Shown: piece by piece, positions 6,630-32,894 of the stretch
Layout of the letters: every line of letters begins with the position of its first letter
Numbering within the stretch: position 1 is the stretch's first letter
NCBI GenBank assembly: GCA_945903645.1
Contig: CAMDOM010000031.1
Span: 1-39,725 of the forward strand
DNA from: Chryseobacterium gleum
GTDB lineage: Bacteria > Bacteroidota > Bacteroidia > UBA10329
Reading direction: 5' to 3'
Length of the DNA: 39,725 nucleotides
Notes under the pieces: generated by a model
What the model saw: the letters and a program-made list of their open reading frames with translations, nothing else
Databases searched by the model: none
Told to the model about the DNA's origin: nothing
Program-made: the position numbers and the translations under genes

Positions 6630-7469
6630 TTGAAGCCTTTTTTAATCATTGAAATTTCCCTCAAACCTCTAGAGGACGACACGCGAGATTTGCTTATTTC
6701 CGAGCTTGGAGATATTGGATTTGAGAGTTTTTTAGAAACGGAATATGGCGTGGAAGCGTGCGTGCATGTTCATCTTCTAGAACGTGAGGTGCTAAATGAA
6801 GTGTTAAATCGATTTCGGGCTGAGGGTTTGGAAATCACCACCTCTGAGCGCCAAGAAGTAGACCGAAACTGGAATGAGGAATGGGAGAAGAACTTTGACC
6901 CGGTAGAAATCGGTACGTTGTGTCGCATTCGTGCACCATTTCATTCATCCAGAGAAGGATTCAATCTGGAAGTGCTGATTATGCCAAAAATGTCTTTTGG
7001 CACTGGCCATCATGCCACCACAGCCGGTATGATAGAATTGATGATGACGCACCCATTGCAATCGCCTCTATTGGATATGGGAAGCGGCACTGCCGTGTTG
7101 GCAATCGTAGCCCGAAAGCTTGGTATTACTGACGTAACTGCTATCGATATTGACGATTGGGCCTTTGAAAATGCGCCAGACAATTGTGCCCTAAATGCTA
7201 TAGACGATATTGTGATTCTGCAAGGAGATGCTGCGTTGTTGGGCAATAAAATCTATGGCACAATCGTAGCCAACATCAACCGCAATGTGCTTTTAGGTGA
7301 TATTCAGCATTACACCAACGTGTTGAAACAAGGAGGTTCACTCTTCTTGAGCGGATTTTATTCGGAGGATTTTGTAATAATTCAATCAGAAACCGAAGAC
7401 CATGGTCTTGTTTTGGTGAACCATGTTATAAATAATAACTGGGTAGCGGCTGTGTTTCAGAAAGTTTAG
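6630..7469 (+). CDS. prmA: Ribosomal protein L11 methyltransferase
   Basis: PrmA is a SAM-dependent enzyme that trimethylates ribosomal protein L11. The N-terminal substrate-recognition domain covers about residues 1-65. The methyltransferase domain shows FGTGHHATT (123-131), the SAM-binding loop LLDMGSGTAVLAI (147-159; the more common form has G-T-G-V), an acidic AIDID strand (171-175), and the family ANINRN motif. The length of 279 fits. The start appears to be TTG at 6630, because no ATG exists at the right distance and the reading from this TTG aligns well with the family N-terminus. No Shine-Dalgarno sequence is evident. It is the last gene of the plus-strand operon, and it ends five bases from a convergent aminotransferase gene. 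Confidence 0.95.
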   Translation: MKPFLIIEISLKPLEDDTRDLLISELGDIGFESFLETEYGVEACVHVHLLEREVLNEVLNRFRAEGLEITTSERQEVDRNWNEEWEKNFDPVEIGTLCRIRAPFHSSREGFNLEVLIMPKMSFGTGHHATTAGMIELMMTHPLQSPLLDMGSGTAVLAIVARKLGITDVTAIDIDDWAFENAPDNCALNAIDDIVILQGDAALLGNKIYGTIVANINRNVLLGDIQHYTNVLKQGGSLFLSGFYSEDFVIIQSETEDHGLVLVNHVINNNWVAAVFQKV

Positions 7470-7474
7470 CAAGA

Positions 7475-8590
7475 CTAGCCGTCACAAGTGGAGTAGAATT
7501 CCTTTATGATTCTACAAACCGTGCTAATTTCGTCTTCACGCAATTCGGGAAACATAGGCAAAGAGAGTATTTGATGTTGATTATCATAGGCCACAGGAAA
7601 GTCACTGGGTGAATGACCAAGATACTTGTATGCCTCCAAAAGAGGAAGAATTACGGGATAGTGTAGCATACATCCTATTCCTTTGGCTTGCAGAAATGAC
7701 ATAAGGTCGTCTCTATGTTTTAAGCATCGAATTACATAAAGATGATAGGTGTGTCTGCAATTCTTACGTTCTGTTGGGGTAATTACTTCTGTAACATTCC
7801 GCAATAATTCATTGTACAGCGCGGCATTTTTTCTTCTTGCCTCTGTCCAATCATGAATATACTTCAACTTCACGCTGAGCACCGCAGCTTGAATGGTGTC
7901 CAATCTGCTATTAATTCCTTCCATCGAATGATTGTATTTTTCGATGGCTCCATGATTTGCAAACGCACGAATTCGGATAGCCAATTCGGTGTCGTTTGTG
8001 ACCACAGCACCTGCGTCACCATAAGCTCCAAGATTTTTTCCAGGATAAAATGAAAACGTTGCTGCATGACCAAAGGTGCCAACATTGCGACCATCAAACT
8101 GAGTGAAGTGAGCTTGAGCGCAATCTTCAATCAGCTTTAAATCATGCTTTTTGCATATGGCAACAATGACATTCATATCTGCCGCATTGCCGTGTAAGTG
8201 GACCGGGATAATGGCTTTTGTTTTTGAAGTTATTTTGGCCTCAATGGAAGCGGGATTAATGGTGAATTGGTTGGGTTCACTATCCACAAATACAACTTTG
8301 GCGCCCGTTTGGGTTATTGTTTCTGATGTTGAAATCCAGCTATTCGCCACGGTGATTACTTCATCCCCTTCGCCAATTCCTAACATGCGCAAGGCAATGT
8401 AAATAGCATCTGTACCGTTTCCTACTCCTATACAGTGCTGCATGCCTAACATTTGAGCGAAGTCTTGCTCAAATTTTTTTACAGTATGGCCCCCAACAAA
8501 TGAAGAGTTTTCGAGAACTGCATTTATTGCAGTCGAAAATTCCTCCTGATGCGCTTGATACTGGCGGTTTAAATCGAGAAAAGGAATCAT
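7475..8590 (-). CDS. DegT/DnrJ/EryC1 (WecE-type) sugar aminotransferase
   Basis: This is a PLP-dependent enzyme of the family that transaminates nucleotide-linked keto-sugars for O-antigen, capsule or glycan synthesis. Motifs seen are the N-terminal IPFLDL start, GVGNGTDA near residues 55-62 for cofactor phosphate, LIEDCAQAH (153-161) for the ring nitrogen, and [16 protein letters not shown] with Lys185 forming the Schiff base. The length of 371 is normal. It overlaps the upstream glycosyltransferase gene by four bases (ATGA), so the two are translationally coupled. Which sugar is used cannot be told; a 3-amino-dideoxyhexose route (FdtB/QdtB-like) is one option. No other sugar nucleotide genes are adjacent. 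Confidence 0.92.
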
Positions 8591-9885
8591 TGCCTAAAAT
8601 CTTCTTTTAAATGGGTCGCAAATTTTGCTGCCTGAATACTTCGTTTATACTGTTCCACATTAGTCTCAATGCCTGAAAAAAGGTCAAAATTCCCGTCTAA
8701 ATATTTAAGGTAACACTGCGTGAGAAATTCAGAAACATCAGAAGCATAATCAAAAGATGCACCAGTTTTTGAGCTTTTAAGAATGTTGTTGACCACACCA
8801 TGATCATTTGGAGCCAGCAAAATCTGAGTACCGCTCGCACAATACTCATAAATTCTGCTTGACGTTATTCCTGTTATATCTGGCATGCCAACAAAGAGTA
8901 AAAGATGAGATTGCCGTTCAGCTAGCAGCACCTCGCTATGCGAAATTCTGTTGGTTGTCTCGATATACGGGATAAGTTCATTACTGAAATTCAGCACACG
9001 AGATACTTGTTGGGTATCTATAGCTAATCCTAGAAAACGAATTCTGAAATCATCGCTGCTTATGCTATTTTTTTTGATGAAGTTAGTACAGGCCTGAAGA
9101 AAAATAGATATGTCTTGTATTCTGTAGAGTGTCCCAACATGTGTTATCGTGAATATTGGGTATTTCGGTAGAGCTGGTATGGAATCAAATAAATTATCTT
9201 CAAAACCATTCTCAATAACGCGATAAGGTCTTTGCACAAATTCTCCTATTTCCTTGGCTAAAGGCTCTGATACCGAAGTGATAAACTTGGCTGTCTTAAT
9301 CCATTTTTTTTCGAAAAACCTGTCATACTCATTTAGAATTTTATAGCTAGAGGCTCGCCCCACGAAACTCATTTTACACGTGGTCCATGCATCTCTATAG
9401 TCAGCTATCCATGGAATGTTGAACTTTTTGTTTAAGTGATATCCGATTTTAAATGAAATAAATGGTTGTCCAGATATGATAATCGCGTCAATTTTTTCGT
9501 TCTCGCAAATTTCCTTGGCAATGGAGTACATTTCATGATAACTGGATAGCCTTAAGCTAATGTTTTGAACCAATAGCTCCATAAGGGAAAGAAACTTTCG
9601 AAGAATAATGGCAATTTTCCCAGTATATTTTTGAAATAATAAATCCTTGACCGAAGCTGTATAAGGAACTCTGTGAATGGTACAATTTTCGCACTGCTCA
9701 ACAGTAACTCCCGGTGTAGTTGAGTAGCCAATATCTGTAAAGGTCTTAATGGGGCGCTCCCACTTCCTTGTCACAACTGTACAATTTATACCGTTTTGTG
9801 GAAAATAGCGCGCCCAAGACGCAGTCCTATTAGCTGCGGTGAGCTCGCATGGAGAGAAATAGTACGAAATTATCAGTACGCGCAT
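8587..9885 (-). CDS. Glycosyltransferase, GT4-like (GT-B fold)
   Basis: The protein is predicted to transfer a sugar from a nucleotide donor during surface glycan synthesis, at the cytoplasmic face of the membrane. The N-terminus [12 protein letters not shown] followed by [18 protein letters not shown] is typical of GT4-type acceptor domains. A C-terminal Rossmann half begins around [12 protein letters not shown], and the donor-site region reads [14 protein letters not shown], with a Glu in the usual position. The length is 432 residues. The gene is visibly AT-rich: bases 9421-9480 contain 16 G+C of 60. It heads a two-gene operon with the aminotransferase. Acceptor and donor are unknown. Confidence 0.85.
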
Positions 9886-21759: not shown

Positions 21760-22233
21760 ATGAAACGTATTAGTGAATACCGCAAATTGTTTGGTACCGA
21801 GGCCGATACCACACTAAAAGAGCTTAAAACCAACTATAGAAATTTGGTGAAAGAATGGCATCCAGATAAGTTTCAATCGGGAGACGAAAAGGCCATTGAA
21901 GCAGAGAAAATGAGCCGTCAAATTATAGATGGGTACCACTTTTTGGTAAGTATTGCGCCCGAAACTAAGGCAGCCAATTTAGAGGAGTACAACAAAACTA
22001 TTTCTGAATCTGGCATAGAAGATTACAAGCATAAGGGCCTTCTTTTGGAGATTACTTTTTTGGATGGAACTACTTATGAGTATTTTGGAGTTTCGGCCAA
22101 TGTATTTGCCAAATTTCACAATAGCGACAAACAGTTTCGTTTTGCAAAGCGCACTATATTCAATTCCTTTTTGTACCGAAAATCGAAAGGTTCGAAAGCA
22201 GATAAGGATGAAGCTGTGACTGAAGGGGCCTAA
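21760..22233 (+). CDS. J-domain protein with C-terminal KTSC domain
   Basis: The N-terminal 65 residues form a J domain (YRKLFGTEADTTLKELKTNYRNLVKEWHPDKF) with the invariant HPD at 34-36, which stimulates the DnaK ATPase. After a short linker, about residues 92-140 match the KTSC domain pattern: LLLEITFLDGTTYEYFGVSANVFAKF followed by FRFAKRTIFNSFLYRK. KTSC domains are small beta/alpha modules linked to lysyl-tRNA synthetase or nucleic-acid-associated proteins and are of uncertain function. The Lys/Asp-rich tail is probably disordered. There is no Gly/Phe or zinc-finger region, so this is a class C J-protein with a specialised client. It stands alone upstream of the isoprenoid-synthase-like gene, 123 bases away. 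Confidence 0.85.
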   Translation: MKRISEYRKLFGTEADTTLKELKTNYRNLVKEWHPDKFQSGDEKAIEAEKMSRQIIDGYHFLVSIAPETKAANLEEYNKTISESGIEDYKHKGLLLEITFLDGTTYEYFGVSANVFAKFHNSDKQFRFAKRTIFNSFLYRKSKGSKADKDEAVTEGA

Positions 22234-22318: not shown

Positions 22319-22326
22319 TATTTTTG
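22319..22326 (+). promoter_or_regulatory. Candidate -7 element for the class I isoprenoid-synthase-like gene
   Basis: TATTTTTG matches the Bacteroidota -7 consensus TAnnTTTG exactly. It lies about 30 bases before the chosen ATG at 22357. A clear -33 TTTG at the right distance is missing, so this is tentative. The match overlaps the TTG at 22324, which argues against that TTG being the start codon. Confidence 0.35.
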
Positions 22327-22356: not shown

Positions 22357-23358
22357 ATGACAAACTACTTTAACAACTTTAGAATTCTTCCAAGCCTGTT
22401 TTTGCAGTTGGTGAATGGGCTTAAGTATCAAAGAAGGTTTATGCAGGGCACAGTTATTCCAGAAATTGAGCGCATCAAAAAAGGTCAAGATGGAAGCCTA
22501 GGTGAGGCTGATTTTAAGAAAATAACCGATTACTACGCTTATGCTGTGCCAGTTATTTGGGGAGAGGCGTTCTCCATGTTGCGCGGAACTAAAATGACTT
22601 TGCACGAGCGAAATGCCCTCACGTATTTGGGTGCTGCAACAGGATTGTTTGATGATTTTTTTGATGAAAAGCGCACCGAGGAGCAGCACATAAAGGCACT
22701 TATAGATAGTCCTTCCGAAGGACTCGCTCGGAATTCTCACGAATTACTTTTCGTACGATTTTTTATAAAGGCGCTTGAGAATACCGATGATATAGATGAA
22801 TTGAAGCGCTATTGTTATCTAGTTTTTGACGCCCAAGTTTTGAGTAGAAAACAAACAAGTGGCAGTTTGAGTAAGGAAGAGATAACTCAGATAACGATGC
22901 AAAAAGGAGGTGTGTCGTTGTTGTTTTACAGATGTGTGATGGGATCATACATTAGCGAAAAAGAACTTTCTATGGTGCATAATTTGGGTAGTGTGTTCCA
23001 ATTGGAAAACGACCTATTTGATATCTACAAAGATTATTTAGGGGGAATTCACACGTTAGCCACCACCGAAACTAAAATCAACAATCTTCGCGAAGTTTAT
23101 TTCAAAATGATTAACGAAACGTTCTCATCTGTGCAGCAAACTCCTTATGCTTTGAGAGATAAAAAGCGGTTTTCGCGGTTTATTTCTTTGATACTTTTTC
23201 GGGGGTTGGTTTGCTTAGACTGGTTGGAGAAGAGTGAGAAAAGAACCCAAGGGGTTTTTTCCATTGGTCAATATTCCCGTAAGGATTTGATATGCGATAT
23301 GGAAAAAGCAAGCAGCGTTTTGCAACTGCTTCGCTGTTATGGTAGAACCAAATTCTAA
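22357..23358 (+). CDS. Divergent class I isoprenoid-synthase-like protein (terpene/prenyl diphosphate chemistry)
   Basis: The protein is all-helical and about 333 residues from the ATG at 22357; a TTG at 22324 would add 11 residues. Two motifs in the right order point to the class I isoprenoid-synthase fold: GLFDDFFDE (first aspartate-rich motif, about residues 97-104) and FQLENDLFDIYKD (second metal motif, NDxxD near 218-222). The second motif closely mimics the FQxxDDxxD of polyprenyl synthases. A Lys-Gly-Gly segment (QKGGVSLLFYR) precedes the second motif, where synthases often have a Lys. Such proteins bind diphosphate through Mg2+ and either condense prenyl units or cyclise them. The overall sequence is remote from ordinary polyprenyl synthases, and length and helices also fit squalene/phytoene-type or terpene cyclases. 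The product is unknown. Confidence 0.7.
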   Translation: MTNYFNNFRILPSLFLQLVNGLKYQRRFMQGTVIPEIERIKKGQDGSLGEADFKKITDYYAYAVPVIWGEAFSMLRGTKMTLHERNALTYLGAATGLFDDFFDEKRTEEQHIKALIDSPSEGLARNSHELLFVRFFIKALENTDDIDELKRYCYLVFDAQVLSRKQTSGSLSKEEITQITMQKGGVSLLFYRCVMGSYISEKELSMVHNLGSVFQLENDLFDIYKDYLGGIHTLATTETKINNLREVYFKMINETFSSVQQTPYALRDKKRFSRFISLILFRGLVCLDWLEKSEKRTQGVFSIGQYSRKDLICDMEKASSVLQLLRCYGRTKF

Positions 23359-31736: not shown

Positions 31737-32894
31737 CTATGCAGTAGCTGCTTCTTCGTCAAAAACGTAGTTGGCATAGTCAGTTACGGTGTTGTAAACC
31801 GTATCTCGCTCTATTGGATGACGGCCAGCATCTTTAATCATTTGCACCAATTGCCGTGTGCTTAGTGCTGGATTTTGCTCTTCCGAGCCGGCCATGCTGT
31901 AGATTTTGGTACTATCGTCAATTGTTCCATCTATGTCATCCACGCCAAAGGCTAACGAAAGTTGAGCTGTGTTTCGACCAATCATGGGCCAATATGCCTT
32001 GATGTGCGCGAAATTATCCATGAAAATACGCGCTACAGCATAGTTTCTTAAATCCTCAATGGTGCTAACCTCAGGCACATGGCTCATTTGGTTGTCGCCA
32101 TTCCGAAATTTAAGTGGAATGAACGTGTTAAATCCACCAGTTTCATCCTGCAAATTGCGCAAGCGGTTCATGTGATCCACGCGATGATGATAGTTTTCTA
32201 CGTGCCCATAGAGCATTGTTGCGTTGCTAGGCATACCCAATTTGTGCGCGGTGCGGTGCATTTCCAACCATTGGTCGCTGGTGCATTTGTCTGCACATAT
32301 TTCAGCGCGAATAACTTCATCAAAAATCTCTGCTCCACCACCAGGCAGAGAGTCCTGCCCGTGTTCTTTTAATACACGCAATCCATCCTCATAACTCAGT
32401 TTGGCTTTGCGACACATATAATCTAATTCAACAGCAGTAAATGCTTTAACGTGGATGTCGGGGCGTATTTCCTTAATTTTTTTAATCAGGCTAGCAAAGT
32501 AATGCAATCCCATTTTTGGATGCACACCTCCGACAATATGAACTTCCGTGACAGGCTTACCATCATAACTCCGCACTTTATCCAAAATTTGTTCTTCGGT
32601 CATTTCCCAGCCTTCATCTTTTTGTTTGAGAAGGCGGCTGTAGGAGCAAAACTTACAATCGAACACGCAGATATTTGTGGGCTCCACATGGAAATTTCGA
32701 TTGAAAAATACCTTGTCACCGTGTTTCCGCTCACGAATGTGATTCGCTAAAGTTCCCAAAAAACCAAGTTCGCCATGTTCGTAGAGATAAACACCTTCTT
32801 CAAAGGAAATACGTTCTTGATTTGCTATTTTCTGAGCGATAGTTTTTAATTTAGGGTCAATCGTACTCGAAATAATTTGATTTAATCCTGTCAT
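31737..32894 (-). CDS. mqnE: Aminofutalosine synthase MqnE
   Basis: This radical-SAM enzyme joins 3-[(1-carboxyvinyl)oxy]benzoate with SAM to make 6-amino-6-deoxyfutalosine in the futalosine route to menaquinone. Visible features are FHVEPTNICVFDCKFCSYSR with the cluster cysteines Cys76, Cys80 and Cys83, EVHIVGGVHP, VKAFTAVELDYM, LPGGGAEIFDEVIR, ATMLYGHVENYHHRVDH, FIPLKFRNGDNQ, WPMIGRNTAQLSLAFGVDDIDGT, and GRHPIERDTVYN, all typical. The length of 385 is standard. Its start lies directly against the stop of the M43 protease gene, so the two are probably co-transcribed. The other mqn genes are not in the window. Confidence 0.96.
   Translation of the reverse strand: MTGLNQIISSTIDPKLKTIAQKIANQERISFEEGVYLYEHGELGFLGTLANHIRERKHGDKVFFNRNFHVEPTNICVFDCKFCSYSRLLKQKDEGWEMTEEQILDKVRSYDGKPVTEVHIVGGVHPKMGLHYFASLIKKIKEIRPDIHVKAFTAVELDYMCRKAKLSYEDGLRVLKEHGQDSLPGGGAEIFDEVIRAEICADKCTSDQWLEMHRTAHKLGMPSNATMLYGHVENYHHRVDHMNRLRNLQDETGGFNTFIPLKFRNGDNQMSHVPEVSTIEDLRNYAVARIFMDNFAHIKAYWPMIGRNTAQLSLAFGVDDIDGTIDDSTKIYSMAGSEEQNPALSTRQLVQMIKDAGRHPIERDTVYNTVTDYANYVFDEEAATA

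Follow-up and report, generated by a model that had tools for sequence, protein, structure and literature searches.

The gene considered here occupies positions 22357–23358 of the plus strand of the window (the whole stretch of 39,725 nucleotides that was analysed), and translation of its open reading frame gives a protein of 333 amino acids. The ATG start at 22357 is backed by relatives with an identical start position; an alternative start, a TTG at 22324 upstream of the ATG, is possible. In Bacteroidota, the promoter −7 consensus is TAnnTTTG, and the candidate found here is weak, a clear −33 element not being seen upstream of the gene. The features of the locus are as follows.

22319..22326, plus strand: putative promoter −7 element TATTTTTG, a match to TAnnTTTG, 30 bases upstream of the ATG
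22357..23358, plus strand: divergent class I isoprenoid-synthase-like protein, 333 amino acids (translation, Pfam, relatives, AlphaFold2 model, PDB matches)
22651..22665, plus strand: metal motif 1, D99-D-F-F-D103, at the C-terminal end of the predicted helix 82–103 (translation, conservation)
22903..22911, plus strand: K183-G-G, with a near-invariant Lys 35 residues before motif 2 (family alignment)
22999..23034, plus strand: metal motif 2, QLENDLFDIYKD, residues 215–226, including Q215, N218, D219, D222 and D226 (family alignment)
23278..23310, plus strand: C-terminal signature R308-K-D-L-I-C-D-M-E-K-A318, the hallmark of the family (family alignment)

Directly upstream lies a gene for a small protein in which a DnaJ and a KTSC domain are fused (21760–22233, plus strand), and downstream, on the opposite strand, are genes for an FMN enoyl reductase/nitronate monooxygenase-like (FabK/NMO-like) protein, a fatty-acid desaturase and a SOUL protein. 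The lipid-flavoured neighbourhood of the preliminary description is therefore present superficially, in the enoyl reductase-like, desaturase and SOUL genes, but no functional linkage follows, as none of these neighbours recurs at the loci of the relatives. The FabK-like gene was found at 79–83% identity in five regions of the same genus; because it is the only neighbour common to them, same-genus synteny gives no inference of an insertion.

Established profiles scarcely recognise the protein. In Pfam, PF00348 (polyprenyl_synt) stayed at 20.6 bits, below its cut-off of 27, with the match confined to residues 137–226, and PF19086 (canonical terpene synthase) gave no match at E-values up to 10, so that of the two profile searches proposed beforehand one ended below its cut-off and the other empty. 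NCBIfam returned zero matches for the protein, which together with the PF00348 score agrees with the earlier remark that, outside the motifs, it is unlike standard polyprenyl synthases. A phmmer search of the PDB sequences gave no meaningful match, a profile built from 20 relatives reached geranyltranstransferase 1rtr at E 0.005, and PF00494 (squalene/phytoene synthase) matched one of 20 family members (E 0.012). Public annotation pipelines may presumably give such proteins a generic class 1 isoprenoid name.

The 20 relatives, 28–53% identical, were found by scanning 84,980 species genomes; 19 are labelled Bacteroidota or lower taxa, and the single record labelled 'Chlorobiota' has a gene neighbourhood nearly equal to that of one Bacteroidetes record. 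Across the phylum Bacteroidota, the family profile matched in 12 of 395 genomes (about 3%), and within the class in 21 of 395, counts that include a few ordinary prenyltransferases or members of a distant sister group (E near 1e-4; proteins of 413–436 amino acids), compared with one of 198 sampled Bacteroidota genomes for PF19086. With profiles barely recognising its members and relatives almost confined to Bacteroidota, the family is indeed an unlabelled one of that phylum, and a search of part of the literature retrieved no paper on this terpene-synthase-like family. None of eight genomes of the same genus carries the gene, so the distribution is patchy, whether through transfer or through loss. 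The profiles on which terpene mining depends miss the family; if its members are terpene synthases, they would constitute an overlooked terpene source in Bacteroidota. Proteins of 413–420 amino acids at four loci (L034, positions 904–2145; L091, L092 and L093) form a more distant sister group; the sequence was compared for L034 alone, whose protein has SDNYLDD as motif 1 and QLIDDLQDIADD as motif 2, without the RKDLICDME signature.

The AlphaFold2 model, computed from a 20-row alignment, is all helical (pLDDT 93.5, pTM 0.90) and represents a class I isoprenoid-synthase bundle, in which the long helices 82–103 and 201–221 carry motifs 1 and 2, respectively, at their C-terminal ends, the placement expected of the superfamily. 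Every one of the best 50 PDB matches listed by Foldseek for this model is a prenyl or terpene enzyme, with probabilities of 0.96–1.00 and weak E-values of 1.4e-3 to 3.2e-2; the matches listed include CrtM, trans-prenyltransferases, BalTS-type class IB enzymes, Sat1646 and UbiA homologues, with dehydrosqualene synthases at the top and Sat1646 giving the best TM among them (0.55/0.62). Because these matches are uniform but remote, we regard the fold as secure and the solved structures as all distant. The different fold that the preliminary description had named as contrary evidence was not seen, and the window protein almost certainly belongs to the class I isoprenoid-synthase superfamily. Two uncharacterised giant-virus proteins, A0A6G8MX44 (Cedratvirus kamchatka) and A0A481ZCB8 (Pithovirus LCPAC403), were matched in BFVD at E 2e-6 and 8e-6, values better than those of any solved structure. 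A viral origin was considered and rejected, as a scan of viral contigs revealed no member of the family and these matches share the fold only, at 16–17% identity; a search of plasmids likewise revealed none.

In the protein, DDFFDE starts with D99 and FQLENDLFDIYKD has residue 226 as its last, D99 and N218 lying 119 residues apart. Conservation was scored in an alignment of 49 family members, many of them just 25–50% identical. The three Asp residues of motif 2 (D219, D222 and D226) occur in all 49, D99, K183 and Q215 in 48 each, R308 in 45 and D100 in 41, while residue 103 is Asp in 45 members and Glu in three. Since the Asp and Lys residues are kept across the 49 homologues, the pairing of two class I metal motifs, whose order had been recognised from the sequence beforehand, is not due to chance. 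All nine residues that were checked are present in 39 members, including all of the clade to which the window protein belongs; the other 10 are without part of the set, mostly in motif 1, and to judge from these sequences the chemistry may have been changed or lost in some of them. The sole near-invariant basic columns of the family are K/R55, K183 and R308. K183-G-G takes the position of the K(T) motif of trans-prenyltransferases and lies close to the SGG/SGA helix break of terpene synthases, and N218 precedes R308 by 90 residues in 26 of the 49 members (87–91 in 47); in the canonical terpene synthases compared, NSE and RY mostly lie 89 residues apart.

By profile comparison, the family appears nearest to the trans-prenyl diphosphate synthases. 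The hhalign P values, which are single-comparison and weak and serve for ranking alone, were 0.0012 against Bacteroidota trans-prenyltransferases (residues 94–227, with both motifs and the Lys aligned), 0.039 against canonical terpene synthases and 0.15 against Bacteroidota squalene/phytoene synthases; HMM cross-scores among the families were near noise in every direction. With the PF00348 enzymes the family has in common the fold, a DDxxD motif followed after about 120–130 residues by a second Asp motif, and the conserved Lys before the latter. However, the basic motifs of the IPP site of prenyltransferases are missing: every matched canonical Bacteroidota trans-prenyl diphosphate synthase carries DDxxDxxxxRR and, with three exceptions, also GxKxxR, and both canonical trans-prenyltransferases of the host carry RR after DDxxD as well as GxKxxR, whereas the family alignment has no basic consensus at the GGKxxR and RR-after-DDxxD sites. 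The family further differs in a loop of 35 instead of 41 residues between the Lys and motif 2, at the first Asp position of motif 2 (residue 218), which is Asn in 30 of 49 members as against Asp in trans-prenyltransferases, and in the extra C-terminal RKDLICDME signature.

Canonical terpene synthases (PF19086) have the same fold, as represented by Sat1646, and a single set of metal motifs. The family sequence NDLFDIYKD matches their NDxxSxxKE except for the replacement of S by D and of E by D, and R308 resembles the Arg of their RY pair in spacing, but is followed by Lys with no Tyr; moreover, the family is without significant profile similarity to these enzymes. Motif 2 can thus be read as intermediate between the DDxxD of prenyltransferases and the NDxxSxxKE of terpene synthases, and, if the proteins are terpene synthases, such intermediate motifs would allow mutagenesis to test directly how cyclases arose from chain-elongating enzymes. 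The closest precedent is provided by the non-canonical class I synthases, of which classes IB to IF were found by structure (PMC11234867). Among them, BalTS (class IB), with the motifs DYLDNLxD and DY(F,L,W)IDxxED, and PeuTPS (class ID), with D(N/D), ND and RxxKD and active though its gene lies outside clusters (PMC11234867), are like the family in having divergent Asp motifs and a fold detectable mainly by structure; the family is set apart from classes IB and ID by their published motifs, which do not match its own.

The missing IPP-site basic motifs, the spacing of R308 and the terpene-synthase-like motif 2 support, although they do not prove, a non-elongating terpene-synthase-like enzyme. 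We accordingly favour, with a probability of roughly 0.55, a Mg-dependent class I enzyme that would ionise an allylic diphosphate and then cyclise or eliminate, without elongating the chain, and we consider terpene-synthase-like chemistry somewhat better than even. The protein is real, divergent and most likely enzymatic; it probably makes a terpene-like product, and terpene cyclase is our best guess, by inference only, as to its identity. The fold, the conserved motifs, the missing basic motifs and the spacing were computed directly; for the substrate and the product, the use of Mg2+ and the functions of K183 and R308, we infer the following scheme. A soluble enzyme, descended from or sister to the trans-prenyl diphosphate synthases and having lost chain elongation, would draw its allylic substrate, probably a C15 or C20 prenyl diphosphate, from the two ordinary trans-prenyltransferases of the host. 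DDFFD and NDLFDxxKD would hold the Mg2+ through which the diphosphate is bound, and K183 and R308 would be the basic residues in contact with the diphosphate. The carbocation left by ionisation would either be turned into a terpene, by cyclisation, rearrangement or loss of a proton, or be captured by water or a non-IPP acceptor. Because two canonical trans-prenyltransferases are encoded, prenyl diphosphates should be available in the host and a third elongating enzyme is not needed. Searches of the host genome found neither a squalene/phytoene synthase (PF00494), which 49 of 51 sampled Bacteroidota genomes have, nor a match to PF19086, so that no ordinary cyclase of these two families would compete.

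A prenyl transferase acting on an acceptor other than IPP (an aromatic compound, a sugar, glycerol phosphate or a second prenyl diphosphate, in head-to-head or head-to-middle fashion) would suit the dehydrosqualene synthases at the top of the fold matches listed, which have the bundle in common with the family, and a host devoid of PF00494 genes. We nevertheless judge it unlikely, because profile similarity to the Bacteroidota squalene/phytoene synthases is lacking (P 0.15) and the motifs are of different types: those of squalene synthase are of the DxxxD type, whereas the family has DDxxD in motif 1 and N/DDxFDxxxD in motif 2. These differences speak against the head-to-head synthase suggested by the preliminary description. 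A replacement of squalene/phytoene synthase by the family was also considered and rejected, as five other carrier genomes have such synthases too.

Less probable still is a prenyl-diphosphate hydrolase, carrier or regulatory pseudo-enzyme, which would bind its ligand without turning it into a terpene. The 10 members with incomplete residue sets would fit such a role, as would the solitary position of most of the genes and the tandem paralogues of one genus (g216), which could form a heterodimer; yet a pseudo-enzyme would not usually keep both motifs so strictly, and the window protein's clade retains all nine residues. In g216, up to three copies occur, with an overlapping tandem pair in four genomes (L065–L068, in G450, G579, G601 and G640; at L065, for example, 7631–8626 and 8619–9605); each position of the pair forms a separate clade, a third copy lies elsewhere in three genomes, and a heterodimer or a two-step pathway is possible for the pair.

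A trans-prenyl diphosphate synthase that is unusual in sequence but does elongate chains, with IPP added to an allylic primer, is the least probable of the alternatives, for its position nearest by profile, its sub-threshold PF00348 match and a motif 2 register (QxxNDxxD) resembling FQxxDD are opposed by the loss of GGKxxR and RR, the shorter Lys-to-motif-2 loop, the two canonical copies in the host and the patchy distribution.

Most family genes stand alone, most lie in no recognisable terpene gene cluster, and a conserved operon across clades was sought and rejected. At L006 and L007, a SAM methyltransferase gene (7153–8004 in each) overlaps the start of the synthase gene, and at L082, in a distant clade, a methyltransferase gene of the same length and 32% identity (7758–8618) lies 116 bases upstream of a synthase whose motif 1 is degenerate. 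Methyltransferase and terpene synthase together constitute an established route to C11, C16 and C17 terpenes (PMC13022886). The methyltransferase matches geranyl diphosphate 2-C-methyltransferase at 64–73 bits, and also sarcosine/dimethylglycine and DVU_1556 methyltransferases; because several families match, all below cut-off, its substrate is not fixed by the profiles. Its family, with the conserved N-terminus DYYDQT..YxxWWK..L..HYGxWD, is found elsewhere in Bacteroidota with other neighbours. As a general partner of the synthase it was rejected, being rare (12 of 390 genomes, two of which also carry the synthase), adjoining the synthase at three loci only and having no isoprenoid synthase in its other neighbourhoods. 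At L018, a geranylgeranyl-reductase-family gene lies 11 bases upstream (TIGR02032, 200 bits against a cut-off of 158.8) of a member with one checked residue missing (Gln in place of N218).

In favour of the terpene-synthase-like enzyme we count the reductase gene at L018 and the adjacency of the methyltransferase in two separate clades; against it we count the closer sequence relation to trans-prenyltransferases than to terpene synthases, the weak Foldseek E-values, the 10 members with incomplete residues and the rarity of the methyltransferase. We tentatively speculate, while holding it rather doubtful, that the family may be a new class I terpene-synthase subclass that arose from trans-prenyltransferases within Bacteroidota and is marked by a hybrid NDxxDxxxD motif and by RKDLICDME as a lid motif; in some lineages it would act on a C-methylated prenyl diphosphate from the adjacent methyltransferase. 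Elsewhere in the window, on the minus strand (31737–32894), lies a gene for aminofutalosine synthase MqnE, matched above cut-off by TIGR03700, so that menaquinone is probably made by the futalosine route.
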